A DNA stretch of 64,000 nt from Micromonospora sp. WMMD882. GTDB taxonomy: Bacteria > Actinomycetota > Actinomycetes > Mycobacteriales > Micromonosporaceae. Within the stretch, counting starts at the first letter, position 1; each line of letters starts with the position of its first letter. The position numbers and the translations under genes were made by a program. Location of the stretch: NCBI RefSeq assembly GCF_027497255.1, contig NZ_CP114903.1, positions 496,001 through 560,000 of the forward strand. Reading direction: 5' to 3'. Positions 7,951 to 41,166 of the stretch are shown in pieces. The notes below the pieces were generated by a model. That model ran no database searches. It worked only from the letters and a program-made list of their open reading frames with translations, and had not been told where the DNA came from.

Positions 7951-9437
<1,487 letters not shown>

Positions 9438-9470
9438 CCGCCGCTGCGGGGCCCCGGCGACCGCCGAGGG

Positions 9471-9506
9471 CCCAGGCGGCCGCCGGGGACACGGGCGGCC
9501 CCTGGG
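9471..9506 (+). terminator. Hairpin terminator after argG
   Basis: CCCAGG (9471-9476) pairs with CCTGGG (9501-9506) and GGCCGCC (9478-9484) with GGCGGCC (9494-9500), with one bulged base and a 9-nt loop. It begins 34 bases after the argG stop. There is no U-tract. Confidence 0.6.
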
Positions 9507-9564
9507 ACACGGATCCCCTGCCGGGCTGGTCGGACGTGCTGTCACGCAGGGTAGCGTGTCGCCC

Positions 9565-11220: not shown

Positions 11221-11303
11221 TCCCGAGGCGAACACCCCGGATAGCCGAAGTGGTGTCGGCCGGGCCCGTGCCCGCCGTTCCCGGGCGTTGCCCGCTGTCG
11301 TCG

Positions 11304-12128
11304 TCAGGGCAGCGCCGGGCCGCTCGGCTGGACGACGGTGCGGGTCGGCGCCGGGGTCTGGGGGCCGCCGCTCGGGGCGACGCTGGTCGGGGCGGGCCCG
11401 CTCGGCGACGGCGGACCGGAGGGCGACGGCGAACCGCTCGGCGACGGCGGACCGGAGGGTGACGGCGAGACGGTGGGGGCCGGGCCGGACGGGGTGGGCG
11501 TCGGGGTCGGCCGGTCGACGTCGCGGCAACCCGCCGCCGCGATCCGCGCCCGTTGGTCGGCCACGAGCTGCTCGATCAGCTTCGTCTGGAGCTTGGCGAG
11601 CTCGTACTCGGTCCGGATCCGTTCGTACTCCTCGACGTCCAGCGCGCCGCTCCGCCAGGCCGCCTCGGCAGCCTCGGCGTTGGCCTTCGTGATGGCCTCC
11701 AGGTCCCTGGTGATCGCCAACTCGTCGAGCAGGCGGTTGAGTTCCAACGCGAGGTCGACGCAGTTGCGGTCGGCCGGGTTCGCCGCGTCGTTCTGGCACC
11801 TCGCCTGGGCGTAGCGGGCGTTGTTCAGGGCGAGGGCGGCTTCGTCCGCCGCCTTCCGGGCGTCCCGCAGCTCCTGGGCGTTGGCGGCGCCCTGCTGGTA
11901 CATCCGCAGCACCCGCTGGTAGCGGGCGATCGCCTGGTCGTGGCGGAGCTTCGCCTGGTCGACCCGGATCTGCTCGGCCTGGCAGACGGCCGGGTCGACC
12001 GGGACGACCGGGTACGGCGTGGTGGGCGGCACCGGCCCGGTGGCCCCGCTCGCCGTGCCCGCGGCGAGGACGAGTGTGACGAGCGCTGCGGTGAGTCCCG
12101 ACAGTACGGCGACGAGCTTGCCTCTCAC
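11304..12128 (-). CDS. Secreted coiled-coil protein with Pro/Ser/Gly-rich C-terminal tail
   Basis: A 274-residue protein with a Sec-type signal peptide (VRGKLVAVLSGLTAALV... ending in ASG-A at about residue 30). A predicted helical, charged region (about residues 50-200) has heptad-like spacing (AIARYQRVLRMYQQGAANAQ, LARTEYELAKLQTKL-like). It has four cysteines that may pair, and a Pro-Ser-Gly tail of about 70 residues made of near-identical units. I recognise no named family. The GTG at 12128 has an AGGGGAG ribosome-binding site; an upstream ATG at 12161 would place charged residues before the signal peptide. The tail looks like a cell-wall-spanning spacer, but that is inference. Confidence 0.75.
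   Translation of the reverse strand: MRGKLVAVLSGLTAALVTLVLAAGTASGATGPVPPTTPYPVVPVDPAVCQAEQIRVDQAKLRHDQAIARYQRVLRMYQQGAANAQELRDARKAADEAALALNNARYAQARCQNDAANPADRNCVDLALELNRLLDELAITRDLEAITKANAEAAEAAWRSGALDVEEYERIRTEYELAKLQTKLIEQLVADQRARIAAAGCRDVDRPTPTPTPSGPAPTVSPSPSGPPSPSGSPSPSGPPSPSGPAPTSVAPSGGPQTPAPTRTVVQPSGPALP
11401..11472 (-). repeat. 36-bp tandem repeat encoding the Pro-Ser-Gly tail
   Basis: Two adjacent 36-bp copies (11401-11436 and 11437-11472) differ by only a few bases. They encode the PSPSGPP/SPSGS repeats of the secreted coiled-coil protein and keep the frame. Confidence 0.8.
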
Positions 12129-12711: not shown

Positions 12712-14061
12712 TCAGGTCAGCGCGGCCAGGGCCTTCGCGTACGCGGGCGGGACGAAGTGCGGGCCGCCGGGGGTGAACACGTCGGATCCGGCGGCGGCGG
12801 TCCACGCCTGCGGCGGCACCTCGGCGACCAGCGCCCGGACCACCGGCGCGTCCCGCCACTGGTCCTGCTCGGCGAGCAGCCCCAACGCCACCACCGACTC
12901 CTCGACCTCGCCGACGCACTCGAACGGCTTGTGTCCGTCCACGCCGAGCAGCTCCCGGTAGCCGGGCAACTGGCTGGCGTCGGCGAGCAGGTCGCCGCCG
13001 AAGATGTCGACGATCCGCTCGCGGGGCATGTTCGGGGCCAGGGCCAGGAAGACGAACCGGCACTTCGGGCAGTCCCGGCACCAGCGGGCGCTCGGGTCGT
13101 GCAGCTTGAACGCGGCGTTGCAGCTCGTCACCACCGCGTCGTAGCGGGTGGTCGCGGCGAACAGCCGGGCGATGTGCAGCTCCGACAGGGACCGCAGCAG
13201 CGAGAAGTACGGCTCGGCGAGCCCGGCGTGGTCGGTCAGCGCCGCCCGCAGCAGCCCTTCCGCCTCGACCCCCTTGGACCACTGGTGGTTGACCTCGTGT
13301 CCGTTCCAGATCAGGTTCGGGTCGGACGCGGACCGCTCGTTGGACATCACCACCGGACCGAGCCCGTGCAGCACGGCGGTGGCGACCGCGATCAGCGAGT
13401 TGATCGCGGTGACCGGGATGTGCCCGTTGCGCGCGCCGGCCTTGTTCAGCGCGAACAGCGCCGGGTCGAGCCTGCGTCGGGCGGCCAGCGCGGGCAGCCC
13501 GGACGCCTCGTTCACCGAGACGATCACGTGGTTCGGGTTGACCGAGAACGGCACCGGGTCCAGCCCGGCCCGGCGCAGCGCCTCCAGGCTGACGATCGAG
13601 TCCTTGCCGCCGCCGACGGCGCAGAGCGGACGCCGGTCGGCGGCGTCCAGCGCCCCGGGCGGGGCCACCGAGCCGGCGGGCGTCTCGGGGACCAGCTCCA
13701 GCACGTACGGCAGGTCGTTACGGTAGGCGTACTCGGCCAGGCCCCTGGTGTAGACGGCGGTGAGCCACGCCACGGCGGCCCCGCCCAGCGGCGCCGGGGC
13801 GATCAGCCGGGGCGGCGCGGCGGCCTTGTAGTAGCTCACCCCGGCGGCCAGGTGCAGCAGCTCCAGCACCCGGTCGAGGGCGGCCCGGGTGGCCGGTGAC
13901 GGCGGCTCGGCGGGCAGCGGCAAGATGACCACCTCGGTGAACCGCAGCTCGCCGTCCGGCCCGGTGAGCGCGTAGTCCAGCCGCACCTCACCGGTGGTCA
14001 GGTCGATCGCGCGGGACGGGAAGGTGAAGGCGTCCATCCGCCGGAGCTGTTCGTTGGGCAC
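12712..14061 (-). CDS. murL: UDP-MurNAc-L-Ala-L-Glu epimerase
   Basis: MurL inverts the L-Glu of UDP-MurNAc-L-Ala-L-Glu to D-Glu in an ATP-dependent reaction; it replaces glutamate racemase in organisms with the MurD2/MurL route (known from Xanthomonas oryzae). The 449-residue protein shows the family pattern: CAVGGGKDSIVSLEAL (PP-loop-like ATP site), FSVNPNHVIV, MSNERSASDPNL, and the Cys pair in WCRDCPKCRFVFLAL near residue 330. The divergent neighbour murD2 supplies its substrate. The GTG at 14061 lies five bases from a TAGTAT -10 element, suggesting a leaderless message; the ATG at 14037 is the alternative start. Confidence 0.9.
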   Translation of the reverse strand: MPNEQLRRMDAFTFPSRAIDLTTGEVRLDYALTGPDGELRFTEVVILPLPAEPPSPATRAALDRVLELLHLAAGVSYYKAAAPPRLIAPAPLGGAAVAWLTAVYTRGLAEYAYRNDLPYVLELVPETPAGSVAPPGALDAADRRPLCAVGGGKDSIVSLEALRRAGLDPVPFSVNPNHVIVSVNEASGLPALAARRRLDPALFALNKAGARNGHIPVTAINSLIAVATAVLHGLGPVVMSNERSASDPNLIWNGHEVNHQWSKGVEAEGLLRAALTDHAGLAEPYFSLLRSLSELHIARLFAATTRYDAVVTSCNAAFKLHDPSARWCRDCPKCRFVFLALAPNMPRERIVDIFGGDLLADASQLPGYRELLGVDGHKPFECVGEVEESVVALGLLAEQDQWRDAPVVRALVAEVPPQAWTAAAGSDVFTPGGPHFVPPAYAKALAALT

Positions 14062-14076
14062 ACGCCATACTAGGCC
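14062..14076. promoter_or_regulatory. Overlapping divergent promoters of murL and murD2
   Basis: The 15-bp segment between the two GTG codons reads ACGCCATACTAGGCC. On the minus strand it gives TAGTAT five bases before the murL GTG. On the plus strand it gives CATACT five bases before the GTG at 14077. Both transcripts would use the same bases as -10 elements, so initiation in one direction should exclude the other. This is inference. Confidence 0.45.
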
Positions 14077-14115
14077 GTGACAAATGAGCCCGTACCTGGC
14101 TGGAGGGGATCCCCT

Positions 14116-15459
14116 GTGCGCCTGTCTGACCTGCGCGGACGTTCTGTCGCCGTCTGGGGCACCGGTCGGGAGGGCCGGGCCGCGGTGACCGCCGTCGCCG
14201 CGCACGGCCCGGCGCGGCTGGTCGCCGTCGACGACAGCGCGAACTTCCTGTCGCTGGACTGGTCCGGGCCGCTGGCCGAGGCCGCGCCGCTGGTCACCGG
14301 CGAGGACGGGTTCGCCGCGCTGGCCGCCGCCGACGTGGTGGTCCGGTCGCCGGGCGTCCCGCAGACCCACCCGTGGCTGGTCGAGCTGCGCCGCCGGGGG
14401 GTCACCGTGACCGGCGGCAGCGCGCTGTGGCTGGCCGACCACGCCGCCCGCACCGTCGGGGTCACCGGCAGCAAGGGCAAGAGCACCACCTCCAGCCTGG
14501 TCAGCCACCTGCTCACCGCCCTCGGCCGGCCCAACGTCTTCGGCGGCAACATCGGCGTGCCGCTGCTCGACCTGCCCGAGGCCGGGCTGTACGTGCTGGA
14601 GCTGTCCAGCTACCAGTGCGCCGACCTGACCGACTCGCCCCGGGTGGCGGTGGTCACCGCGCTGTTCCCCGAGCACCTGGACGCGCACGGCGGCGAACGG
14701 GAGTACTACCGGGACAAGCTCAACCTGCTCGCGCACGGGCCGGAGACGGTGGTCGTCAACGACCTCGACGAGCGGCTCGCCGCCGAGCTGGGCGACCGGC
14801 CGAGGGTACGCGCCGGCCGTCCCGACGGCTTCCACGTCGCCGTCGGCCCGGACGGCACGCCGTGGTTCCACGCCGCCGGCCGACCCCTCTTTCCCCGTAC
14901 GGCGTTGCCGCTGGTCGGCGCGCACAACGCGGGCAACCTGTGCGTGGCCCTGGCGGTGCTGGACGCGCTCGGCGTGGACGTGCCGGCCCGCGCCGACGAG
15001 ATCGCGGCGGCGGTCGCCGCGTTCCAGGGGCTCGCCCACCGGCTCACCGAGATCGCCGACCCGTCCGGGCTGACCTTCGTCGACGACACCCTCGCCACCA
15101 GCCCGTACGCGGCGATGCACGCGATCGACGCGTACCAGGGCCGCCCGTTGACGGTGATCGTCGGCGGCACCGACCGGGGGCTGGACTACACGCCGCTGCG
15201 GGAACACCTGACCCAGCGGGAGATCACCGTGATCGGCATCCCGGACAGCGGGCCCCGGATCGTCGACGCCCTGGCCGGGCTGCCCCGGGTGCGTACCGAG
15301 CTCGCCGACGACCTGGTCGCGGCGGTGCGGCTGGCCCGTAAGCTCACCCCGGCCGGCGGGGTGGTGCTGCTCTCCCCGGCCGCGCCCAGCTACGGCCGGT
15401 TCCGCAACTTCGAGCACCGCTCCGAGGTCTTCGCCCAGGCCGTCCGCGACACCGCCTGA
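14116..15459 (+). CDS. murD2: UDP-N-acetylmuramoyl-L-alanine--L-glutamate ligase
   Basis: Mur ligase of 447 residues that adds L-Glu, rather than D-Glu, to UDP-MurNAc-L-Ala; MurL then epimerises the product. The N-terminal UDP-binding part starts LRGRSVAVWGTGREGRAA, the ATPase core has the P-loop VTGSKGKSTTSSL near residues 116-128, and the ligase C-terminal domain ends with SPAAPSYGRFRNFEHRSEVF, a MurD signature. Pairing with divergent murL is the main reason to call MurD2 rather than MurD. The GTG at 14116 has GGAGGGG upstream and matches the usual N-terminus; an in-frame GTG at 14077 would add 13 residues. Confidence 0.9.
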   Translation: MRLSDLRGRSVAVWGTGREGRAAVTAVAAHGPARLVAVDDSANFLSLDWSGPLAEAAPLVTGEDGFAALAAADVVVRSPGVPQTHPWLVELRRRGVTVTGGSALWLADHAARTVGVTGSKGKSTTSSLVSHLLTALGRPNVFGGNIGVPLLDLPEAGLYVLELSSYQCADLTDSPRVAVVTALFPEHLDAHGGEREYYRDKLNLLAHGPETVVVNDLDERLAAELGDRPRVRAGRPDGFHVAVGPDGTPWFHAAGRPLFPRTALPLVGAHNAGNLCVALAVLDALGVDVPARADEIAAAVAAFQGLAHRLTEIADPSGLTFVDDTLATSPYAAMHAIDAYQGRPLTVIVGGTDRGLDYTPLREHLTQREITVIGIPDSGPRIVDALAGLPRVRTELADDLVAAVRLARKLTPAGGVVLLSPAAPSYGRFRNFEHRSEVFAQAVRDTA

Positions 15460-30760: not shown

Positions 30761-31579
30761 TCAGCCGTCGATGGTGAAGCGCTCCAGCACCGAGGGGGCG
30801 AGCAGGCCGAGCGCGGCCAGCACGGAGACCACCGTCAACACCGAGCGGACCACCACCACCTCGGTCTTGCCACCGGCGCGCAGGGCGATGCTGTTCGGCA
30901 GGCCGATCGGCGTCCACATCCGGCGTTTGATCGGAATGGGCCACAGGATCGGCACCCCGGCCTTGGTGATCATGTCGCCGATGATGTGCACGAAACAGCC
31001 CACCGCCATGGCCACGCCGATCATCGGGTAGCCCCGGTCGCCGGGCAGGTTGACGAACGTGTACCAGGCGCCGGCCGCCGAGGTGAGGGTGACGATCACC
31101 CAGCCGGCCCGTTCCGCCCAGCGGTCGAACAGCCCACGCAGCGCCAGGCCGATCATGAAGAACAGGATGCCGACCACCGCCCATTTCCCGTACGCGGTGC
31201 AGAGCGCGGTGGTGCCCCAACCGACCAGCACGGTGAACGGGATGGTGTGGGTGAGGGTGCGGTGCCCGTTGCTGCGTTTCGGATCCCTGCTCAGCTTCGT
31301 CGCGTAGTAGACGCCGAGCGAGATCTTCTCGATCACCTCGGCGACGAACAGCGAGAAGACGCCGAACGTGCGGGCCACCGTCGCGCCGCCCTGGTTACGG
31401 GTGACCTTGCCGGAGAGGTCGAGGTCGGGAAAGAGCGCCCCGCCGGCGCAGACCGCCGTGCCGACCGCCAGCGCCAGCGCGGACTGCTCGTAGTCGGCGA
31501 AGTGCTCGAGCGCCAATGACCCGGTCAGCCACACCGCCGCGCCGGACAGCGCGTGCGACGGTCCCATCATGCCGCTCAT
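30761..31579 (-). CDS. DUF457/YdjM-family membrane protein (predicted metal-dependent hydrolase)
   Basis: A 272-residue membrane protein with about six hydrophobic segments. Motifs include MGPSHALSGAAVWL at the N-terminus, GALFPDLDLSGKV, NGHRTLTHTIPF and HIIGDMITKAGVP, the conserved His/Asp set of the DUF457 family. The hydrolase label comes from these residues in relatives and no substrate is known. It converges with the M15 gene with only 10 bases between stops, and marks the left edge of the accessory segment that follows. Confidence 0.85.
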   Translation of the reverse strand: MSGMMGPSHALSGAAVWLTGSLALEHFADYEQSALALAVGTAVCAGGALFPDLDLSGKVTRNQGGATVARTFGVFSLFVAEVIEKISLGVYYATKLSRDPKRSNGHRTLTHTIPFTVLVGWGTTALCTAYGKWAVVGILFFMIGLALRGLFDRWAERAGWVIVTLTSAAGAWYTFVNLPGDRGYPMIGVAMAVGCFVHIIGDMITKAGVPILWPIPIKRRMWTPIGLPNSIALRAGGKTEVVVVRSVLTVVSVLAALGLLAPSVLERFTIDG

Positions 31580-31769
31580 CCTCCCCGAAGATCGTGATCG
31601 ACAAGCTACGGCACGCGTACGACATCACGGGTTCCGGGGTTGACAGTCGACAGTGGACCGATGGGCGGGCGGACGGCCGCATGGGTTGCTCGCCGCCACC
31701 TGCGGGCGGGTGAAGTCGGCATCGCCGACGGCCACCGGCCCCGGCGGCGGGTGTCGCGCAGGCGGCGCA

Positions 31770-32126
31770 GTAGTACGGCTTCTGGTTGGCGACTCGGTCG
31801 ATCGGGATCAGGGTGCCGTCGAGGATCGCGTAGGCGAGCAGCCGGATCCTGGTCATGGCCGTGGCCAGGTCGCCGGCGGTCGCGGCGAGCAGGTCGATGG
31901 CCTCGCGGACATAACGCCAGGCCGTCGTGACGCCGATGTCGAATCCGGCGGCCAGGCGGGCCAGGGGGTCGCCGTTGCGCAGGTGGGCCAGGGCGAGCAG
32001 GGCTTGCCGGCCGGGGGCCAGGCGTCGCCACCGGGACCGTCGCTGCTGGCGGCGGGCTCGGATGAGGGCGGCGAGGTGGTTCAGGCCGCGGGTGGACAAC
32101 GGAATCGCGGCAGGGTAAGACAGCAC
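31770..32126 (-). pseudogene. Truncated IS5-like transposase remnant
   Basis: The first 119 codons of a transposase: an N-terminal helix-turn-helix region (RQALLALAHLRNGDPLARLA, then AGFDIGVTTAWRYVREAIDL) leading into the start of a DDE domain at ILDGTLIPIDRV and NQKPYY. The similarity stops abruptly after KPYY and the downstream sequence is unrelated, so roughly two thirds of the gene, including most catalytic residues, is gone. The GTG start is preceded by the inverted repeats of the element end. The element cannot move by itself. Confidence 0.8.
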
Positions 32127-32186
32127 AGCGAGGCTCCCGGTTGGGGCATCTGATCTTGGTCGATTGCTGTCTTACCGGGAGCCTCG
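32114..32186. repeat. Terminal region of the IS remnant with two interlocked inverted repeats
   Basis: GGTAAGACAGCA (32114-32125) is the reverse complement of 32165-32176, and CGAGGCTCCCGGT (32129-32141) is the reverse complement of 32174-32186. The arms alternate instead of nesting, so the two stems compete or form a pseudoknot-like fold. The outer GAGGCTCCCGG sequence is the likely terminal inverted repeat of the element. Confidence 0.65.
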
Positions 32187-32344
32187 TCCTACCTGGACAC
32201 CGGCCTCCCGCGCCGCCCGTGACCTGCACCGTCACGATGAAAATGGCTCATTAGGTGAAGCAACTTTTAGCCCAGTGGCTACTTCGGTGGCGGAGCCCTG
32301 TGGATGGCACCTCGGATCGGAGCTGGCATGTTTCTCCCCAGGCG

Positions 32345-32368
32345 GAACGGTACCGCGTGGTACAGTTC
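32345..32368 (+). promoter_or_regulatory. Toxin-antitoxin operator/promoter palindrome
   Basis: GAACGGTACC (32345-32354) and GGTACAGTTC (32359-32368) form a 10-bp inverted repeat with one mismatch and a 4-base spacer. TACAGT (32361-32366), inside the right arm, fits the -10 pattern and lies 7 bases before the antitoxin ATG, suggesting a leaderless transcript repressed by the antitoxin. Confidence 0.65.
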
Positions 32369-32373
32369 GGTGC

Positions 32374-32673
32374 ATGACGAGGATTACGCTGCGGGAGTTC
32401 CGCGATGGCGCGGGTCGGGTGCTGGACGGAGTTGAGCGCACCGGTGAGCCGGTCATGATCACGAAGTACGAGCGGCCGGTGGCCGTGCTGGTGGGCATCG
32501 ACGAGTGGGAAGAGATCGAGGCGTTCCGGGACCGCCGAGACGCTGCGGTGATCGCTCGTTCCCGTGCTGAGGGGCAGTTCGTGCCGCTGTCGGCGGCGCT
32601 GGAGTCGCTCGGGGTGGATCCTCGTGAGGTGGAGGCATTGCTGGCCGACCGGGCCGGCGATGCGGCGGCGTGA
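32374..32673 (+). CDS. Phd/YefM-family antitoxin
   Basis: A 99-residue antitoxin. The N-terminal Phd/YefM DNA-binding fold (ITLREFRDGAGRVLDGVERT, EPVMITKYERPVAVLVGIDE) is clear, and an acidic helical C-terminus would wrap the toxin. It overlaps the toxin gene by four bases (GTGA), as is usual for these pairs, and a palindromic operator lies immediately upstream for autorepression. Confidence 0.92.
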   Translation: MTRITLREFRDGAGRVLDGVERTGEPVMITKYERPVAVLVGIDEWEEIEAFRDRRDAAVIARSRAEGQFVPLSAALESLGVDPREVEALLADRAGDAAA

Positions 32674-32912
32674 AGGTTCAGATCGACCGGGATGTGCTGG
32701 TCTGGTTGCACAAGCAGCCCCGCAACGTCTTTCTGACCGTCCTGAGCGCGATCCTCGGCTTGGTCTCCGACCCTGAGCCACAGAGCTCGACCGAGATGCG
32801 CGACGGATCCGGTCGTCGTTTGCGGGTCGGTGACTACCGGGTCCTCTACCGCCTCGACGGCGACGACTTGACCATCCACGCCGTCGGGCATCGCAAGGAC
32901 GTCTACTCGTAA
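32670..32912 (+). CDS. RelE/ParE-superfamily toxin
   Basis: An 80-residue RelE-fold toxin: VQIDRDVLVWLHKQPRNVFL helix region, then the signature RRLRVGDYRVLYRLDGDDLTI and the closing HAVGHRKDVYS. RelE toxins cut mRNA on the ribosome, and the R--DYRVLY segment and C-terminal His/Arg/Tyr residues are the active-site region. Its start overlaps the antitoxin stop. Confidence 0.92.
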   Translation: MKVQIDRDVLVWLHKQPRNVFLTVLSAILGLVSDPEPQSSTEMRDGSGRRLRVGDYRVLYRLDGDDLTIHAVGHRKDVYS

Positions 32913-33462
32913 GCCGTCCGGGTCGCGGCGGCCTTATCAGCACAATGGGGTCGAGGTCGCCGACCGGCCGAGTCGCCGACCGGTGGGTCCCTTCGAGGCA
33001 GGGTTGCGCCACTGGCGCGGATGTCTCGCCGGCGCCCTCAGGGCCCCGGCAAAGTCGTCGGCGCGTCCGACATGAGGTATTCGGCTGGGAAGCGCCTGGG
33101 TTGCGGGCAGCAAGGCGGGTGTGACCGGTTCGGATGATCATCAGGGTGTCGAAGCCAGGTCCGCACCGGCACCGGCCCGCCCTCCGCACCGCAGGCATCA
33201 CCAACATCGCCGCCGCCAACCGACATCAATGCCCGCGACAGCACCCGCCCCTTGGCCCTCCTTGGCTCACTTGACGACTTTGCCGGGGCCCTGCTGGCTG
33301 CCCGACGGCTCCTATCACGCGTTGATCTACACGGTCTGGCCAGGACGCTGCTACGCCGTCCGCGCCGTGACCGGGACCGTATCCGACCTCGTCAGCCTTC
33401 TCGTCCGACTGGTCGGTTGCGCCCTTGTCTGGCCAGGGGCTCAGTGCGTCGTGAGGCGTCCT
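32913..33462. other. 550-bp stretch without a convincing gene
   Basis: Open frames here have no recognisable motif, no good ribosome-binding site and atypical composition. The stretch lies between the toxin gene and the AlpA-like gene in the accessory segment and may be decayed coding sequence. I see no clear repeat or RNA gene in it. Confidence 0.5.
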
Positions 33463-33693
33463 TCAGGGCTGCTCGGTGGTGGTTCGGACGTCGAGGTGCG
33501 GCCGGTGCTCGCGGATCCACGTTTCGACGTCTGCGCGTAGCCACACCTGGCCCATCCGCAGGGTCTGGTACGGCTGCGGGAAGTCACGCCGGGACGCGAT
33601 GACTCCGGCCCGCGCCCGGGACACGCCGCCCAGCATGTCTCGGATCTCTGCGATCCCGACCAACTCGCCCACACGCCGACCGTAAGCGTTCAC
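33463..33693 (-). CDS. AlpA-like small DNA-binding protein
   Basis: A 76-residue protein with a MerR/AlpA-type winged helix-turn-helix: VGIAEIRDMLGGVSRARAGV, then PQPYQTLRMGQVWLRADVETW. Such proteins act as excisionases or regulators on mobile elements, but similar ones are also common as free-standing actinobacterial regulators. No integrase gene lies nearby. Its position in the accessory segment fits a mobile-element origin. Confidence 0.7.
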   Translation of the reverse strand: MNAYGRRVGELVGIAEIRDMLGGVSRARAGVIASRRDFPQPYQTLRMGQVWLRADVETWIREHRPHLDVRTTTEQP

Positions 33694-33760
33694 GATACCG
33701 AGACGATCGGGAACGCCGATCGGGGTTGACGGTCGCTAACAGCGGATGCAGGATGAGGTC

Positions 33761-34183
33761 ATGTCGCTGTCTGTGAGACGTCCGAAACCCGTCCCTTTCG
33801 CCCCTGTGCACCGCCCGGTCATTCGTCGCTGGTTCCGATTGTCCTGCTCATGCGGGTTGCGGTCCTGGCGGCGCTGTCCGGACCGGCGGTCGCCGACGCC
33901 CCTCGGGCCGCTCGCCACGTCGGCCCGCCTGGAGTCGGAGTACCAGCCGTGCCCGCCTCGGCCGGCTGACCCACCGTCGCCGTCCGGCCCGGATCCCGAG
34001 TCGGGGCCGTCGTCTCCGACCTGTCTGACCGGGCCGTCTCCGTGGCCGTACGTCTGCCGCCGGGAGTCGGGCGACGACGCGACGGTGGTCCTGTGGATCA
34101 ACGGCGCTGCGCTGACCGCGCCCGCCCAGCGGTGGCGTGGCGGCGCAGGCCGTACGGTCCGGCCGAACGGGGGCCGGTGGTGA
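33761..34183 (+). CDS. Hypothetical small protein with a CxC...C motif
   Basis: A 140-residue frame starting at an ATG preceded by GGATGAGG. The N-terminal part is basic and contains WFRLSCSCGLRSWRRCPDR (about residues 25-43), a possible metal site. The middle is Pro/Ser-rich and the end Gly/Arg-rich. I recognise no family. It precedes the Cys-motif gene at 34224 in the same direction, so the two may form a small operon. That it is a real gene is moderately supported. Confidence 0.5.
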   Translation: MSLSVRRPKPVPFAPVHRPVIRRWFRLSCSCGLRSWRRCPDRRSPTPLGPLATSARLESEYQPCPPRPADPPSPSGPDPESGPSSPTCLTGPSPWPYVCRRESGDDATVVLWINGAALTAPAQRWRGGAGRTVRPNGGRW

Positions 34184-34223
34184 GGCGTGGGTTACCCGCT
34201 GCCGTCGACGGGCTGGTCGTCTG

Positions 34224-34571
34224 ATGGGCCGCCGCCGGGTCGGTGCCCGGCGGCGGCACGGTTACGCCCGGCCGTCGTGGTTGTGTGCGACGTGCGGCGC
34301 GCCGTGGCCGTGTCAGCCCGCGAAGTTGCGCCTGCTGGTCGAGTACCGGGACGACCTGCTCGCCCTGATGGTCCGCCTCGGCGAGACGATGGTGGCGGCG
34401 TCGTCGGAGTTGCCGTCCGATGTGGACGTGGTGGCGCGTTTCCTGTTGTGGGCCCGCCGGCCGGCGCCGGCTACCCCCGAACCGGTTCGACCTGAACCTT
34501 CGAGACCTGTGACCCCCTCCCATGAAGATCATCTCCGCGTTGGTCGACGGCCGAGAATCCACATGGGATGA
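34224..34571 (+). CDS. Small Cys-motif protein (WxCxxCxxPWPC family), second copy
   Basis: A 115-residue relative of the protein at 5438-5782. The diagnostic cluster WLCATCGAPWPC is followed by the matching helix AKLRLLVEYRDDLLALMVRL and a region with ARFLLWARR. The N-terminus is Arg/Gly-rich and the C-terminal 35 residues are low-complexity. It sits 244 bases upstream of the peptide operon and is transcribed in the same direction. Function is unknown; three cysteines suggest metal binding. Confidence 0.72.
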   Translation: MGRRRVGARRRHGYARPSWLCATCGAPWPCQPAKLRLLVEYRDDLLALMVRLGETMVAASSELPSDVDVVARFLLWARRPAPATPEPVRPEPSRPVTPSHEDHLRVGRRPRIHMG

Positions 34572-34815
34572 ACGCTTCGATCGGCAGATGCCGAAAGTGA
34601 TGGCGTCGTCACTGGTCAGTCATAGTTCCAGGTCAATGGGGATGTGATTGCCAGTCTCGACCCGGGGTCAATCATTATGTGCGGCGCGGACTATTGCGAT
34701 CGACGAGGGCGTATCTCTTGACAGTCGTCCGCGCCCGGGGCAAGACTGACGAAAGCGCTCGCCGACCAGGCAAGGGCGGATCCGGTCCGGCCGGATATTC
34801 CAGAAAGGGGCCACA
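34572..34815 (+). promoter_or_regulatory. Probable promoter region of the peptide operon
   Basis: TTGACA at 34718-34723 is a consensus -35, with a weak AAGACT 18 bases downstream. ATCCGG (34780-34785) and CCGGAT (34791-34796) form an inverted repeat 19 bases before the first start codon. GGTCAAT occurs twice (34631 and 34666). These are candidate control sites; none matches a regulator I can name. Confidence 0.4.
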
Positions 34816-34932
34816 ATGGAGGACGTCAAAGAGGTCACTCTGACCTCCGCAGAGGACATCCTGGCCGCCCTGCAGGCGGCGCACGCTGCGCCGCAGGAGA
34901 TCGCCCACAGCATCCAGTGGGGCAGCGAGTAA
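34816..34932 (+). CDS. Short peptide gene, putative RiPP-type precursor (38 aa)
   Basis: A 38-residue frame with a good GAAAGGGG ribosome-binding site five bases upstream of its ATG and a TAA stop. The N-terminal half is acidic and amphipathic (EDVKEVTLTSAEDILAALQ), like a leader that a modifying enzyme could bind, and the C-terminus is HSIQWGSE, with the only Trp. There are no cysteines, so no lanthipeptide or thiopeptide chemistry is expected. It opens a tightly packed operon whose third gene is a cobalamin-binding radical SAM enzyme, 6 bases before the next gene. A structural small protein is the alternative. Confidence 0.65.
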   Translation: MEDVKEVTLTSAEDILAALQAAHAAPQEIAHSIQWGSE

Positions 34933-34938
34933 TCATCC

Positions 34939-35601
34939 ATGTCACGCTCGGCGGTCACGCGATACGAATTGTCGTACCGGGCCACCGTGGGACCCGCGTT
35001 GGCGGAGGAAATTGCTTCCTTCGCCAACGCGGAGTTCAGTCAACTGTTCCTCAGGCGTCCCCAGGTCACCCAGTACTTCGTTTCCGCCGCCCCGGCGACC
35101 GCCGCGACCGTCGTCGCGGTACAGGACCGGTGCGACGTGGACGATTTCCGGGCGGCGATGTCGGTGAAGGAGACGCTCCCCGCCGCGGGGGCCGGGTCGC
35201 TGCCGGTGCCCCTGATCCGCCGTGAAGTCGTGCACATGATCGCCCTGCGGGAGCCCGTGCTCACCCGACAGCCTCCCGGCGGCGGCCCGGTCGGGGCGCT
35301 GGGCGGCTTCTCGTGGGGGCCCTGGCACCAGCAGCAGCGCAGCAAGTGGCGCATCGAGACCTGGCCCGGCGCGGACGTCTACCTGTCGATCGACCAGGCG
35401 GAGTGGGACCACGGTCACGGATTGCGGGCCGTCCAGCCGTCGATCGGGATCGAGGCGAACTTCTCCGACGACCGTGGTCCCGACGACTGGACGGAAGCGG
35501 CGCGGGCGCTGCTGGCGCACGCCGACCGCCTCGGCCTCAGGGACCTGCTGCCCGCGTACACCCGATCGAAAGTGGAGGCAGCCGCATGCCAGAGACCCTG
35601 A
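34939..35601 (+). CDS. Unrecognised 220-aa protein of the peptide operon
   Basis: A 220-residue soluble protein with no family I recognise. Residues 1-60 are predicted helical (ALAEEIASFANAEFSQLFLR). A Gly-rich turn with WGPWHQQQRSKWRIETWPG lies at about 125-145, followed by an acidic, aromatic segment (DQAEWDHGHGL) and a C-terminal helix (WTEAARALLAHADRLGLRDL). It starts 6 bases after the peptide gene and overlaps the radical SAM gene by 16 bases, so it is made with both. A leader-binding or scaffold role is possible but not shown. Confidence 0.75.
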   Translation: MSRSAVTRYELSYRATVGPALAEEIASFANAEFSQLFLRRPQVTQYFVSAAPATAATVVAVQDRCDVDDFRAAMSVKETLPAAGAGSLPVPLIRREVVHMIALREPVLTRQPPGGGPVGALGGFSWGPWHQQQRSKWRIETWPGADVYLSIDQAEWDHGHGLRAVQPSIGIEANFSDDRGPDDWTEAARALLAHADRLGLRDLLPAYTRSKVEAAACQRP

Positions 35602-37034
35602 TCCCGGTCGCGTCCGTCGCCGGCCGCACCCCGCGACCGTCGGCCCGGGTCTACCGGTCCGTGGCGCTGGTGAGCTACCTCGCCAGGGAATACCACATGG
35701 CGCCGTACGGCGCGGCGGTCCTCGCCAACGCGATCGAGGACGACGAGCGCCGCCGCCGTTGCGATCCGATGACGGACGTCGAGGTGATCGCGCTCGACCA
35801 CGCCACGCCCGCGGAGCAGGCGGCGGCGGAGGTGCTCGCCCGCGACCCCGCGCTGATCGGCCTGAGCCTCTACGTCTGGAACTACTCCCGGACGCTCGCC
35901 CTGGCGTCGGCGCTGCGGCGGGCCCGACCCGACGCGGTGATCGTCGTCGGCGGGCCGCACGTCAGCCGCGACGACGCCCGGCTGACCCGTGCCGTCGCCG
36001 ACGGCATCGTCGACTGTTGCATCGCGGGCGAGGGTGAGGGCGCCTTCCTGCGGATCCTCGGTCAGCCGAAGGACGAGCTGCCGGCGTTCGTCGACGGCGA
36101 CCCGGCTCTCTTCTCGGCGCGTACGTCGCCGTACCTGTCGCAGCCGGTGCTGCGCCGGGAGCTCGACGCCACCAAGACGGTGATCATCGAAGGCTCCCGT
36201 GGCTGCCCCTTCCTGTGCACCTTCTGCGACCAGGGGTGGCGCAAGGCGCGGCTGGCCGACGACGCCCCGCTGCGGGACGAGCTGAAGGCGCTGTACGACC
36301 TCGGCGCACGACACTTCATCTTCCTCGACCCGACGTTCAACTACCACCGGTCCCGGATGCACGACGTGCTCGGCTTCATGCGCGAGGAGCTGCCGGGGGC
36401 GACCTTCAGCGCCGAGCTCAAGGTCGAGATGTTGAAGGACGACGACGTCGCCGCGCTGGACGGCCTGTGCACCCACATCGAGGCCGGCCTGCAGACCGTG
36501 CACCCCGAGACGCAGCGCGTCATCCGCCGACGGGAGAACGTCGACCGCCTCTGGGAGAACACCAACGCGCTGCTCGGCACGGGTATCAAGGTCGCCGTCA
36601 ACACGATCTACGGGCTGCCCGGGGAGAGCCTGGCGGACTGGCTGGCCACCGTCGACGCCGCCTACGCCGCCACCCGCGCCCAGATCACCTCCACCTGCCT
36701 GAAGGTGCTGCCGAACACCGAGATCTGGAACCAGCGCCAGACGTTCGGCTACCTGTGGGACGAGGACGACCTGTTCCGGGCGCTGGAGTCGGACGCGATG
36801 AGCGGAGCCGAGTTCCGTCGCGCGGAGGCGCTGTCCCGGGTGCTCTCCGCCGTCCAGACCCCGGACGGGGTGGTCCCGGAGGTGCGGCTGTTCCTGGCGG
36901 ACCGGCCGGGCTGGAAGCTCAGTGACTTCCTGGTGGCCATGGTCGACGGCCGGATCGTGTTGCGCAGCGGCACCGACCGGGCCGGCGCGCGGCGACTGCG
37001 CCTCGAGATGGCCGGCGAGGCGGCGGCGGCCTGA
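35586..37034 (+). CDS. Cobalamin-binding-domain radical SAM enzyme
   Basis: A 482-residue enzyme. The N-terminal part (about residues 1-180) is a B12-binding Rossmann-like domain (ALIGLSLYVWNYSRTLALAS, VIVVGGPHVSRDDA, IAGEGEGAFLRIL). The radical SAM core has the 4Fe-4S motif CPFLCTFC with Cys207, Cys211 and Cys214, then FIFLDPTFNYH, HIEAGLQTVHPE and NTIYGLPGESL. Such enzymes methylate unreactive carbons or do other radical chemistry using methylcobalamin and SAM. A peptide substrate, perhaps the only Trp, is a hypothesis from gene order. No other radical SAM gene is nearby. Confidence 0.92.
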   Translation: MPETLIPVASVAGRTPRPSARVYRSVALVSYLAREYHMAPYGAAVLANAIEDDERRRRCDPMTDVEVIALDHATPAEQAAAEVLARDPALIGLSLYVWNYSRTLALASALRRARPDAVIVVGGPHVSRDDARLTRAVADGIVDCCIAGEGEGAFLRILGQPKDELPAFVDGDPALFSARTSPYLSQPVLRRELDATKTVIIEGSRGCPFLCTFCDQGWRKARLADDAPLRDELKALYDLGARHFIFLDPTFNYHRSRMHDVLGFMREELPGATFSAELKVEMLKDDDVAALDGLCTHIEAGLQTVHPETQRVIRRRENVDRLWENTNALLGTGIKVAVNTIYGLPGESLADWLATVDAAYAATRAQITSTCLKVLPNTEIWNQRQTFGYLWDEDDLFRALESDAMSGAEFRRAEALSRVLSAVQTPDGVVPEVRLFLADRPGWKLSDFLVAMVDGRIVLRSGTDRAGARRLRLEMAGEAAAA

Positions 37035-37036
37035 CG

Positions 37037-37795
37037 ATGGGACTTCCCCCCACGGCGACGAACGCGGGCGTGACCGCCCGGGTGGACGCGATCCTGGGGA
37101 CCTTCCGGTCCTCCCGGGCGGTGGCGGCGGAACGGTTCGGCCCGCTCTCCAAGGCGTCGTACCTGGTCACCTTCGCCACCCTGACGGCACTGTTCCACGT
37201 CCACCTGGAGTGCCTGGACAGCGCGGAGCGGGGGTGGGTCGCCGGGCGGCTGGACGACGTACGCGAGGAGCTGTACGCGATGTTCCGCCGGATGACCCAG
37301 CCGCCCCGGGCGGAGGTCCGCCGGACGCCGGGCCGGTTCGCGGGCATCGCCTGCGACCTGCTCACCTTCGACGGGGAGCGGGCCGAGGCCCGGGCGGGCC
37401 GGGAGGCGTTGCGGGGCCGCGTCGTCGGACTGGACGACGTGCTCCGCAGCGGGACGTCGCCCGGCACCTACCTCTTCTGCCTCACCGAGCAGGACGAGCT
37501 CGTGCTCTACGCCGTGCCGCTGTCGTACGGCGACATGATGACGGGGGCGGTCGCCGGGGAATTCACCGTCAAGCACACGATGCTCCCGGAGGAGGGGGTG
37601 GCGGTGGTGTGCGCGGGCGAGATCCACGTGGCCGTCTCCCCGGCCGGTGCGCCGGGAGTGATCGTGACCCGCGCCTCCGGCCATTTCCAACCGCGGGCGT
37701 CGGCCGAGCTGCTGACCCGGGACCATCTGGTCCGTCGGTACGGCATGCGGGGTGACGCGGTCTGTCTGCTCTCCCACCCCGGCGCGGTCCGGTGA
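37037..37795 (+). CDS. Unrecognised 252-aa protein of the peptide operon
   Basis: A 252-residue soluble protein without a recognised family. Residues 15-100 look all-helical (KASYLVTFATLTALFHVHLE, LDDVREELYAMFRRM), while the second half is mostly strands (TYLFCLTEQDELVLYAVPLS, EEGVAVVCAGEIHVAVSPAG). A polar or regulatory role is possible. It starts two bases after the radical SAM stop and overlaps the transporter by GTGA, so it is translationally coupled and probably essential to the pathway. Confidence 0.75.
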   Translation: MGLPPTATNAGVTARVDAILGTFRSSRAVAAERFGPLSKASYLVTFATLTALFHVHLECLDSAERGWVAGRLDDVREELYAMFRRMTQPPRAEVRRTPGRFAGIACDLLTFDGERAEARAGREALRGRVVGLDDVLRSGTSPGTYLFCLTEQDELVLYAVPLSYGDMMTGAVAGEFTVKHTMLPEEGVAVVCAGEIHVAVSPAGAPGVIVTRASGHFQPRASAELLTRDHLVRRYGMRGDAVCLLSHPGAVR

Positions 37796-39027
37796 GTTCC
37801 GCCGTCGAGGCGGGCGCGCCCCCGGGGAGGACGCCCCTTCCCCGGGGGGCGGTCTCCTTCATCGTCGCCCAGTCGGCGTCCAACGCCTGCTCGGTGATGG
37901 AGATGTTCACGCTGAGCTGGCTGGTGCTCAGCGCGGATCAGCTCCACCTGACGCCGTTCTCGTTCGCCCTGATCGTGGCCGGTCACTTCCTGCCGGTGGT
38001 GCTGCTGGGGCCGCTGTACGGCCGGATCGCCCGGCGGATCCCGCCGATCCGGCTGTGGCGTTGGTGTCTGGCGGGCGAGGCGACCCTGACCACCGTCCTG
38101 GGGGTCAGCCTGCTGGCCGGGGCGGATCCCGCGTTCGGGGTCTTCGTCGTGTACGCCGTCGCGCTCGGCACCATGCAGGCCCTGGAGGTGCCGAGCCGGC
38201 AGTCGATGCTGATGAGTTTCCTTCAGGACGCGTTCGCCCGGGGGTACGCGCTGTTCACCTCGACCAGCCGGGCCCTGTCGGCGCTCGCCCCGCTGCTGGC
38301 CGGTCTCCTGCTCGCCAACGTCGACGTCGGCGTGGTCTTCGTCGTCAACGGGGTGAGCTTCGCGGCGATCCTGCTGGTCGTGCTGCGCAACGTCGCCCCG
38401 GCCACCGCCCCGCGCCCGGACGGCAGCCGGCAGCCGGGCCCCCGGGCGTCGATCAGGGCCTGGCGGCCGCTGCTCCTGCTGGCTTTCGCGCTCGCGGCGA
38501 TCGGCAACCAGTTCCCGGTCACCAACATCCTGGCGCTCGACCATCTCTCCCACGACGGCAGCGTCGCCTTCGGCGTCGTCTCGGCCGCCCTCGCGGTCGG
38601 CATGGTGGCGGGTCCCCTGATCGCCCAGCGGGCGGAGCGGTTCGCGGCCGAGGCGACCGCGCTGGTGGCGGTGACGTTCGGGGTGTTCGAGATCGCGATG
38701 GGCTTCTTCGGCCCGATCGTCAGCTACTGCCTCCTCGCCTTCGGCGCGGGTCTGGCGCTCTCGTCCTTCATGGTCCTGTCGGTGACGACGATCAAGAAGC
38801 AGGCCGACCCGGCCGACCAACCCGGGATCATGGGCTGGTTCGGCGTGGCGACCATCGGTCTGGTGCCGGCCGGGACCCTCCTGGTGGGCTGGCTGGCCAG
38901 GTACGGGGATCAGGCCACCCTGATGGCGCCGGGCGGGCTCTGCGTCGTCGCCGGCCTCAGCTACCTCGTCCACGTGCGGCGACAGGGGGCCGAGCGCCCT
39001 GCCGTCCGGGAAGGAGCCTCGACGTGA
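37792..39027 (+). CDS. MFS transporter, probable product exporter
   Basis: A 411-residue major facilitator with about ten to twelve membrane segments and an MFS loop at PLYGRIARRIPPIRLWRW. The shape matches drug/metabolite efflux pumps of the MFS_3 type (QALEVPSRQSMLMSFLQ, SRALSALAPLLAGLLLA). In this operon it likely exports the mature product and gives self-protection. It overlaps both neighbours: GTGA with the upstream gene and GTGA with the downstream cupin gene. Confidence 0.9.
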   Translation: MSSAVEAGAPPGRTPLPRGAVSFIVAQSASNACSVMEMFTLSWLVLSADQLHLTPFSFALIVAGHFLPVVLLGPLYGRIARRIPPIRLWRWCLAGEATLTTVLGVSLLAGADPAFGVFVVYAVALGTMQALEVPSRQSMLMSFLQDAFARGYALFTSTSRALSALAPLLAGLLLANVDVGVVFVVNGVSFAAILLVVLRNVAPATAPRPDGSRQPGPRASIRAWRPLLLLAFALAAIGNQFPVTNILALDHLSHDGSVAFGVVSAALAVGMVAGPLIAQRAERFAAEATALVAVTFGVFEIAMGFFGPIVSYCLLAFGAGLALSSFMVLSVTTIKKQADPADQPGIMGWFGVATIGLVPAGTLLVGWLARYGDQATLMAPGGLCVVAGLSYLVHVRRQGAERPAVREGAST

Positions 39028-39809
39028 CCACGTCCTTCGCGCGCCTGTCCGACTTCCTCTCCACCGACGTCGACTGGGACGACTCCGAGGACGACGACAC
39101 GATGTGGCGGGTGGGTGACTTCGCGTCGTCGTTGGTGCGCCGCAACCCGTCCCTGGTCCAGGAGCGGATGGCGGAGATCAGCCGGTCCCGGTCGCTGATG
39201 GACGAGCTGGTGCCGCACTCGGAGTTCCCGCACCGGCGGCGCGACAAGTTCGTGCTGTTCCGCGACCCGGGGGAACGGTTCGTGGTCCGGCTGCACCGCT
39301 TCCACCCCTGCGGCAGCACCGACACGGAGTACGGGCCGATCCACAACCACCGGTACCCGGGGGTGACCGTCCTGCTGCGCGGCGCGTACCAGGAGCGGGT
39401 CTACACCGAGGTGGCCCGCGACGACGCCCGCCGGACGGCCGATCTCACCCTCGACGAGGAGCGGGTGCTCGCCGGCGGCCAGGTCGACGTCAAGGGCTGG
39501 CGGACCGCCCACCAGGTCCGCAACGTCTCGCCGGACCAGGCCGCGTTCACCCTCTTCGTCCGGGGACCCTCGCTGCGCCGGTTCAGCCACATCTACGACC
39601 TGGACAACGGCACGTTCATGGACACGGCGGGCGCCCACGACCTGGCGCGGGTCGGCTTCCTGACCGCGATGATGGGGTCCGCCGCGGTGCGCAGCAGGCA
39701 CGACGCGATGCGGTTCATCGGCCCCGCGGACCAGTGGTCCGAACGGTACGACGTGATGATGAGGGTGGCCGAGGGGCAGGGCTTCCCGCCCCCCGGCACA
39801 GCCCCGTGA
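39024..39809 (+). CDS. Cupin-fold protein, possible metal-dependent oxygenase
   Basis: A 261-residue protein with a cupin metal site: GPIHNHRYPGVTVLLRGAYQ gives the HxH pair, and KGWRTAHQVRN gives the later His. The N-terminal 90 residues are helical and acidic. The layout recalls cysteine-dioxygenase-like or 3-hydroxyanthranilate-like iron enzymes, but the usual Glu of motif 1 is not evident. It ends the operon and may oxidise the peptide or a tailoring substrate. The stop is followed by a 30-bp tandem repeat shared with the next gene's end. Confidence 0.7.
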   Translation: MTTSFARLSDFLSTDVDWDDSEDDDTMWRVGDFASSLVRRNPSLVQERMAEISRSRSLMDELVPHSEFPHRRRDKFVLFRDPGERFVVRLHRFHPCGSTDTEYGPIHNHRYPGVTVLLRGAYQERVYTEVARDDARRTADLTLDEERVLAGGQVDVKGWRTAHQVRNVSPDQAAFTLFVRGPSLRRFSHIYDLDNGTFMDTAGAHDLARVGFLTAMMGSAAVRSRHDAMRFIGPADQWSERYDVMMRVAEGQGFPPPGTAP

Positions 39810-39810
39810 C

Positions 39811-39870
39811 GTCGACGCGTCACCCGGCGGGCGGGCGGCCGTCGACGCGTCACACGGCGAGCAGGCGGCC
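39811..39870. repeat. 30-bp tandem duplication at the junction of the peptide operon and glycogen genes
   Basis: 39811-39840 and 39841-39870 are 27/30 identical. The right copy contains the last codons and TGA of the minus-strand glycosyltransferase gene; the left copy keeps an in-frame TGA but lies between genes. It looks like a local duplication at the end of the accessory segment. Confidence 0.75.
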
Positions 39871-41166
39871 CTCGGGAATGGCGATCTTCTGGCGGACGAC
39901 GGCGGCCGGGGCGGCGGTGTGGCGTACCCGCTGGGGTTGGTGCTCGCGGCGGGCGGCGGCGTAGCTGGCGGCGGTGGACGCGGCGATGGTCGCCCAGGCG
40001 TAGCGTTCGCCGACCATGGTGCGGGCCCGGCGGGCCACCCGGCGGGCGAAGACCTCGTCGCCGACGAGCTGGTCGACCGCGCCGGCCAGGGCGTCCGGGT
40101 CGCTGTGCGGGAAGGTCACGCCGGTCACGCCGGGCTCGACGATCTCGGCGAGGCCGCCGGTGGCGGCGACGGCGAGCGGCGCGCCGGCCGCGGCGGCCTC
40201 CAGGGCGACCATGCCGAACGGCTCGTAGAGGCTGGGCACCACTGTCGCGTCGGTGGCGCCGAGCAGCGCGGGGAGCTGGCCCTCGGTGAGGAAACCGGTG
40301 AAGCGTACGGTGTCGGCCAGCCCGAGGTGACCGATGCGCTCCCGCAGCTCGTCGCGGTACGGGCCGTCGCCGGCGATCACCACGCGCAGGCCGGGGTGCC
40401 GGCGGCGCAGCCGGGGCACCGCGTCGACCAGGTGCTGCACGCCCTTCTCGTAGACCAGCCGGCCGGCGAAGCCGATCAGCGGACCGTCGGCGGCGAAGCG
40501 GGCCCGGGCGGCGGCGACCGCCCGGGGGCGGGCGTGCCAGGCCCGACCGTCCACGCCGTTGGGCACCACGTCGACCCGCCCGGCCGGCACGTCGAAGAGG
40601 GTGGCGACCTGGTCGCGCATGTACCCGGAGCAGGCGATGACCCGGGTCGACGAGGTGCTCAGCCAGTGCTCGACGCCGTGGATGGTGCGGTTCTGCTCCT
40701 CCGGCAGCCAGCCCTGGTGCCGGCCGGCCTCGGTGGCGTGGATCGTGGTGACCAGGGGCAGGTCGAGGTGCTCGCTGATGGTGACGGCGGTGTGCGCGAC
40801 CAGCCAGTCGTGGGCGTGCACCACGTCGTACCCGCCGGTGTCGGCGGCGCGCAGCGCGGTGCGGGTCAGGGTGTGGTTGAACGCCATCGTCCAGGCGAGC
40901 AGGGCCGGGGTGGCCAGGGGGAAGGCCACCGGGTCCTCGGGGGCGCGCAGGATCCGGACGCCGTCGGTGTACTCCTCCAGGGGCGCGCCCTCGGCGTGCC
41001 GGGTGACCACGGTGACCTCGTGGCCGGCGGCGGCGAGGGCCACCGAGAGCGCGTGCACGTGCCGACCGAGTCCACCCACGAGCACCGGCGGGTACTCCCA
41101 CGAGAGCATCAGCACCCGCTGGCGGCGGGCGGGGTGGATGTCGATCACGTCCGCGTTCGGTGACAT
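39850..41166 (-). CDS. GT4 glycosyltransferase, glycogen synthase-like
   Basis: A 438-residue GT-B-fold enzyme: N-terminal VLMLSWEYPPVLVGGLGRHV (ADP/UDP-sugar enzyme loop), and in the C-terminal domain IGFAGRLVYEKGVQHLV, FTGFLTEGQLPALL and the nucleotide-sugar site VPSLYEPFGMVALEAAAAGA. Actinobacterial members make or extend alpha-1,4-glucan. Neighbouring debranching enzyme and GH63 genes support an alpha-glucan role. The start has an AAAGGGGG ribosome-binding site. The exact product (glycogen or a capsular glucan) cannot be told. Confidence 0.85.
   Translation of the reverse strand: MSPNADVIDIHPARRQRVLMLSWEYPPVLVGGLGRHVHALSVALAAAGHEVTVVTRHAEGAPLEEYTDGVRILRAPEDPVAFPLATPALLAWTMAFNHTLTRTALRAADTGGYDVVHAHDWLVAHTAVTISEHLDLPLVTTIHATEAGRHQGWLPEEQNRTIHGVEHWLSTSSTRVIACSGYMRDQVATLFDVPAGRVDVVPNGVDGRAWHARPRAVAAARARFAADGPLIGFAGRLVYEKGVQHLVDAVPRLRRRHPGLRVVIAGDGPYRDELRERIGHLGLADTVRFTGFLTEGQLPALLGATDATVVPSLYEPFGMVALEAAAAGAPLAVAATGGLAEIVEPGVTGVTFPHSDPDALAGAVDQLVGDEVFARRVARRARTMVGERYAWATIAASTAASYAAARREHQPQRVRHTAAPAAVVRQKIAIPEGRLLAV

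Follow-up and report, generated by a model that had tools for sequence, protein, structure and literature searches.

What does a cobalamin-binding radical S-adenosylmethionine (SAM) enzyme do beside a gene for a 38-residue peptide? The question is raised by an operon at 34816-39809 of the window analyzed here, a 64,000-nt stretch (bases 496001-560000) of the single-contig 6.37-Mb genome of Micromonospora sp. WMMD882. The operon is real, the case for a peptide-modifying system is stronger than before, and it is of a rare kind for which no description was found; among the matches listed from the open full-text literature, no title or abstract opening reports it. The explanation we favor, to which we give an even chance, is a pathway for a ribosomally synthesized and post-translationally modified peptide (RiPP), in which the enzyme takes the peptide as substrate and C-methylates it in its C-terminal part, a cupin is a possible oxygenase and a major facilitator superfamily (MFS) protein is the exporter. 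Six closely packed open reading frames (ORFs), all on the plus strand, make up the operon:

34816..34932, plus strand: 38-aa putative precursor peptide, no Cys, with a leader-like N-terminal part and then ...AHSIQWGSE; has a Streptomyces counterpart
34939..35601, plus strand: 220-aa protein of no known family, possibly a CYTH/TTM-like barrel; two homologs, low-confidence AlphaFold2 (AF2) model
35586..37034, plus strand: cobalamin-binding radical SAM enzyme, 482 aa, CxxxCxxC at C207/C211/C214, invariant W98; from Pfam and alignment
37037..37795, plus strand: 252-aa protein of no known family; two homologs
37792..39027, plus strand: MFS transporter, 411 aa, probable exporter; Pfam PF07690
39024..39809, plus strand: cupin, 261 aa, related to cysteine and 3-mercaptopropionate dioxygenases; PDB 6xb9 and PHROG

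Consecutive ORFs are spaced by +6, −16, +2, −4 and −4 nt. An initial annotation of this stretch had described six same-direction genes with gaps of at most 6 bp, beginning with a Cys-free 38-residue peptide, and this description holds; the four overlaps it counted are three (−16, −4 and −4). Two of the six proteins match Pfam families above cut-off, the radical SAM enzyme (B12-binding, E 1.6e-17; Radical_SAM, E 2.7e-20) and the MFS protein (PF07690, MFS_1, 8e-23; the match to TIGR00900, 3.8e-16, is below cut-off), and the other four match none. The annotated cobalamin-binding radical SAM enzyme with Cys207/211/214, the MFS gene, the cupin gene and the two proteins (220 and 252 residues) without a recognized family are thus all confirmed, with export itself a prediction. 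Homologs begin where the 220-, 482- and 252-aa genes begin, which supports the start codons assigned to these three.

Is the peptide more than a chance ORF? As a bare ORF, the window peptide (MEDVKEVTLTSAEDILAALQAAHAAPQEIAHSIQWGSE) is unremarkable, because the codon-position GC signal is equal or stronger in 22 of 113 window ORFs of 30-60 aa; the case for it is a comparative one, drawn from sequence. A pattern scan with the enzyme over one genome per species (84,980 species) returned 24 stretches, two of which (L004 and L005), both from Streptomyces, encode a relative with 52% identity. In each, a 38-codon ORF encoding MEQKEIKGIDSIDAILDAMNADEAPAGTVRSLPWAELD ends 293 nt upstream of the enzyme. 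Peptide ORF and enzyme therefore co-occur in all three loci compared, two of which are near-copies; related operons lacking the peptide, which the initial annotation had named as evidence against a RiPP, are the opposite of what was seen.

The window and Streptomyces peptides are equal in length (38 aa), contain one aromatic residue each (Trp; His apart) and share, in the same order, KE-[IV] (offset by one residue), IL-x-A-[LM], AP and S-[IL]-x-W, the last close to the C-terminus in a leader-like pattern. Both ORFs are preceded by the bases GAAAGGGGC and a similar ribosome-binding site, and GAAAGGGG ends 5 nt ahead of the ATG in the window and in L005. In local alignment the peptides score 32 (shuffle mean 19.8), and the peptide ORF ranks top of 387 small-ORF candidates in L005, alternative starts counted. 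The case for pairing rests on similarity together with position, not on similarity alone.

The two Streptomyces loci, which align over 9411-11561 (L004 ends at 11562) at 96.2% identity, also indicate how the peptide changes. Over the peptide and its stop codon they differ at 1 of 117 nt, and the change is silent, so the frame non-conservation that the initial annotation had set against its own reading is not what appears here. There are 12 differences in the 108 nt ahead of the peptide, 9 in the 293-nt gap after it and 57 in the 1452 nt of the enzyme, where 19 of 484 codons (stop included) change meaning. About 4.6 peptide changes would be expected at the enzyme's rate and about 3.6 at the gap's rate, with one observed; these small numbers fit purifying selection on the amino-acid sequence.

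Downstream of the peptide, L005 carries a 20-bp terminator-like stem followed by a T-run (z −5.9 for a 136-nt stretch), so that the peptide transcript could exceed that of the enzyme. Precursor genes are commonly expressed in excess over their enzymes. The same order of ORF, strong terminator-like stem and enzyme would also suit a regulatory leader peptide that controls the enzyme gene by attenuation through its Trp codon. We regard this as improbable, since there is a single Trp codon and it ends 85 nt ahead of the stem, the window ORF is only 6 nt from the next gene, the length and pattern of the peptide are similar across genera, and Rfam gave no match (riboswitch or known RNA) at E up to 1.

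What would the enzyme do to such a peptide? A search of 5.8 billion proteins, with scoring confined to the 7998 candidates that had most words in common with the query, places the enzyme in a subfamily with at least nine other clusters (P0007-P0015) at 34-71% identity, one of them from Bacillus cereus (P0015); beyond these come P0016 (35% over 69%) and then remoter B12-radical SAM proteins. All ten subfamily members share RGC-x-F-x-CTFCDQGWR, with invariant cysteines, and VWNY. Judged from these searches, the subfamily is rare. Genome scans with the enzyme profile A1, in which the first few candidates per genome were scored at E ≤1e-40, found only the enzyme's own genome among 300 of the family, two matches among 394 of the class (its own and one that fits the genome of L004 in place and score) and two among 392 Streptomyces genomes, both already known. 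Plasmid searches with P0003 and P0015 gave matches that were all below 60% identity, and at most 30% among the matches listed; a scan of viral contigs gave one match, at 23% identity.

In none of its NCBIfam matches does the window enzyme reach the cut-off: 89.5 bits against 700 for KedN5 (NF033712), its best match, 56.7 against 750 for ApyD (NF050148) and 49.8 against 281.85 for TIGR03975. For the other nine clusters, compared by E-value only, the best match is likewise KedN5 (2.6e-31). Against PDB, the A1 profile matches TokK (2.9e-26), CysS (7.3e-25) and then AprD4 (2e-20). W98, invariant in all ten members, stands opposite W76 of TokK by a manual count along the printed alignment, and an invariant Gln occupies the position of TokK W215. 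According to an excerpt of one review, TokK W76 occupies the lower axial space of the cobalamin and TsrM has Arg69 there (PMC9692996); with that excerpt as the guide, the correspondence of W98 and W76 argues for a TokK-like radical over a TsrM-like polar methylation. C-methylation by the window enzyme is thus favored, as a prediction from sequence.

In the pathway proposed, the 38-aa peptide would be a ribosomal precursor with a leader of about 25 N-terminal residues and the C-terminal S-[IL]-x-W segment as target. The enzyme, most likely TokK/CysS-like, would use one SAM to methylate its cobalamin; a second SAM would give a 5′-deoxyadenosyl radical that abstracts hydrogen from the peptide, and methylcobalamin would donate its methyl group to the radical-bearing peptide carbon. 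The cupin may then oxidize the peptide, a protease encoded elsewhere would remove the leader, and the MFS protein would export the product.

One other label attached to the enzyme was considered. The sole PADLOC model it matches is PDC-M51A (145 bits, residues 31-423), which scores 471.7 on P0023 and 126-162 on B12-radical SAM proteins outside the subfamily (P0017, P0020 and P0025) and so looks like a neighboring family. A defense role was set aside: the model probably marks that neighboring family, and its label is no evidence of defense.

The cupin resembles thiol dioxygenases (PDB 6xb9, E 3e-6; PHROG cysteine dioxygenase, 4.2e-7), with the H-x-H and a later H aligned to 6xb9 and no Pfam family at E up to 1. 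Among 196 further genomes of the class, three (L057, L058 and L059) had a relative of it, and each time a radical SAM gene is adjacent or less than 4 kb away, a raw count with no chance rate attached. In L057 the relative (213 aa) starts 13 nt past a gene matching radical SAM/SPASM models; in L058 the preceding gene shows the radical SAM motif too, by eye; and in L059 the relative shares its strand with a gene, 3.7 kb distant, that matches B12-radical SAM models. One literature search aimed at this point brought up no thiol-dioxygenase-type oxygenase in a RiPP pathway. By eye, a NUDIX-like gene lies near the pair of radical SAM/SPASM enzyme and thiol-dioxygenase-like cupin in L057 (5113-6907) and L058 (4928-6798), which is possibly a separate pathway.

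Several points weigh against methylation of the peptide, and some of them favor other readings. The similarity of the two peptides is modest in itself (276 of 20,000 shuffles reach 32, p ~0.014), and the next best candidate in L005, an unrelated ORF, scores 30 against 32. L004 and L005 are near-copies and so amount to about one independent comparison; DNA context covers 2 of the 10 enzyme clusters (own included), because P0009 is almost identical, by eye, to the L005 enzyme. At E 0.01, tblastn found no homolog of the 220-aa, 252-aa, MFS or cupin proteins in L004 or L005. L004 stops just past the enzyme, which limits downstream comparison to L005; there, as in the window, an MFS gene follows the enzyme, although it encodes a different MFS protein, and a 440-aa protein comes next. 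That protein (12841-14163) is membrane-spanning by eye and has no Pfam or NCBIfam match.

Also on this side, no small peptide ORF is conserved between L057 and L058 beside the related cupins, the third PDB match, AprD4, is by its NCBIfam name a diol-dehydratase and no methylase, and a Pfam scan of the six operon proteins, several of them without a family, found no protease, LanB-type protein or RiPP recognition element (RRE; PqqD-like), just as the initial annotation had said. Leader-binding RREs are common but not universal in RiPP pathways and frequently escape sequence-based detection. The missing protease and RRE and the bare L057/L058 cupins suit a small-molecule pathway in which the 38-aa peptide is an accessory protein or subunit and no substrate; so do the enzyme's named relatives, since TokK, CysS, PhpK, AprD4 and KedN5 act on small or carrier-bound molecules. 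We nevertheless think this unlikely, though it is the strongest of the alternatives: in L005 the peptide is preserved as one unit ahead of the terminator-like stem, and by Pfam the operon holds no other scaffold-making gene, though two of its proteins are without a family.

A RiPP could also be made with a different chemistry, the enzyme forming a C-C or C-X cross-link or some other change rather than a methylation. Trp-linking radical SAM RiPPs exist, and the Trp retained close to the C-terminus of the peptide resembles them. B12-radical SAM enzymes can cross-link, moreover: the portion of the pbs report consulted describes a RiPP in which PbsB joins ortho-tyrosines (PMC12257519). Against this, TokK and CysS, which head the PDB matches, are methylases, and the window enzyme shares with TokK the Trp to which the TokK excerpt gives a lower-axial place; each peptide has one aromatic residue, its Trp (His apart), so an aryl-aryl link within it is impossible. 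A cross-link is accordingly rated below the small-molecule pathway, as distinctly unlikely.

Least probable of all, and by a wide measure improbable, is a pearlin-like pathway, in which the peptide would be a carrier for building and then releasing an amino acid. A short carrier-like peptide, oxidative and radical enzymes and a transporter would suit one, but Pfam found no LanB-type peptide-aminoacyl-tRNA ligase in the operon, and that ligase defines such pathways. C-methylation of the peptide remains the reading we prefer. The earlier RiPP proposal has gained a peptide ORF beside the enzyme in L004 and L005, a gain worth about one independent comparison, and modification of the peptide is still a prediction.

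How did the operon reach this genome? With alignments of at least 200 bp to four relatives, it falls within an accessory insertion:

31615..39850, no strand: accessory insertion with the operon, between a YdjM-like gene (30761-31579) and a glycosyltransferase (39850-41166)

In all four relatives the alignment breaks off after window base 31614 and picks up again at 39855-39940, and the non-aligned DNA between measures 4.3, 4.3, 3.6 and 2.1 kb; by eye, one of these stretches (L113) carries an apparently Ser/Thr-kinase-like gene. Among 150 relatives there is no close match to the enzyme (best E 1.4e-15, 57 bits against 1080 for self), with remote matches at E 0.001 in 85. In L005, a resolvase-domain ORF stands immediately ahead of the conserved block. 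From the insertion site, the sparse relatives and this ORF, the peptide-enzyme pair looks like an accessory, horizontally moving element. Within the insertion, upstream of the operon, two adjacent small ORFs at 32164-32912 are antitoxin- and RelE-type toxin-like by eye, and a 76-aa ORF at 33463-33693 on the minus strand has, by eye, a small helix-turn-helix/excisionase-type look.

The two proteins without a family have two homologs each, which back the longer forms; the database entries P0030 (204 aa) and P0033 (241 aa) are shorter than the 220- and 252-aa ORFs. The fold of the 220-aa protein may be a CYTH/TTM-like barrel, on matches from a low-confidence AF2 model (pLDDT 54.8, pTM 0.55). It does not match PF01928 at E up to 1, and a CYTH search of its own genome gave two matches, both away from its gene. 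CYTH membership by sequence was rejected (hhalign score 15.6, with shuffled controls up to 19.2, n=60; the set held six rows, one with stray residues past a stop), as was a structure model of the 252-aa protein built on a single sequence (pLDDT 49.8). Profiles run over 197 genomes gave weak partial matches outside the own genome, the best at E 3.8e-4 for the 220-aa protein and 4.8e-4 (in L039) for the 252-aa protein. Matches recur at residues ~140-171 of the 220-aa profile, and those in L047 and L055 fall, by eye, in GNAT acetyltransferase-like ORFs.

Is the system new? The C-methylases TokK, CysS and KedN5 have, like the window enzyme, an N-terminal B12 domain and a radical SAM domain with CxxxCxxC, and the VWN motif of the window enzyme falls at the lower-axial Trp position of TokK. 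In contrast to them, the window enzyme adjoins a short peptide gene, has 482 aa against 645-681 in the solved TokK/CysS-type chains and 624 in the KedN5 model, and carries Gln in place of the TokK W215 of the partly consulted source. ApyD and TIGR03975, which are B12-radical SAM C-methyltransferases of RiPPs, are moderate matches far under their cut-offs. As far as the consulted portion of its description extends, the biphenomycin-like pbs cluster shares with the operon a B12-radical SAM enzyme, a cupin-like oxygenase and a precursor; the operon lacks, by Pfam, the MNIO, arginase and TldD-type protease of that cluster, its cupin is thiol-dioxygenase-like, and its peptide is without the FHAFRF motif (PMC12257519).

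We tentatively suggest, at somewhat less than even chance, a new RiPP class that combines a Cys-free 38-aa precursor (a leader-like helix with a single Trp close to the C-terminus), a B12-radical SAM subfamily not yet described, a CYTH-like barrel, a second protein of no known family and a thiol-dioxygenase-like cupin, and that has spread horizontally between actinobacterial genera. If the peptide is the substrate, the operon would be a compact system for radical peptide modification by a B12 enzyme shorter than TokK and CysS, and it brings with it accessory proteins of no known family. Genome mining that starts from established RiPP marker genes would probably overlook a subfamily of such rarity.

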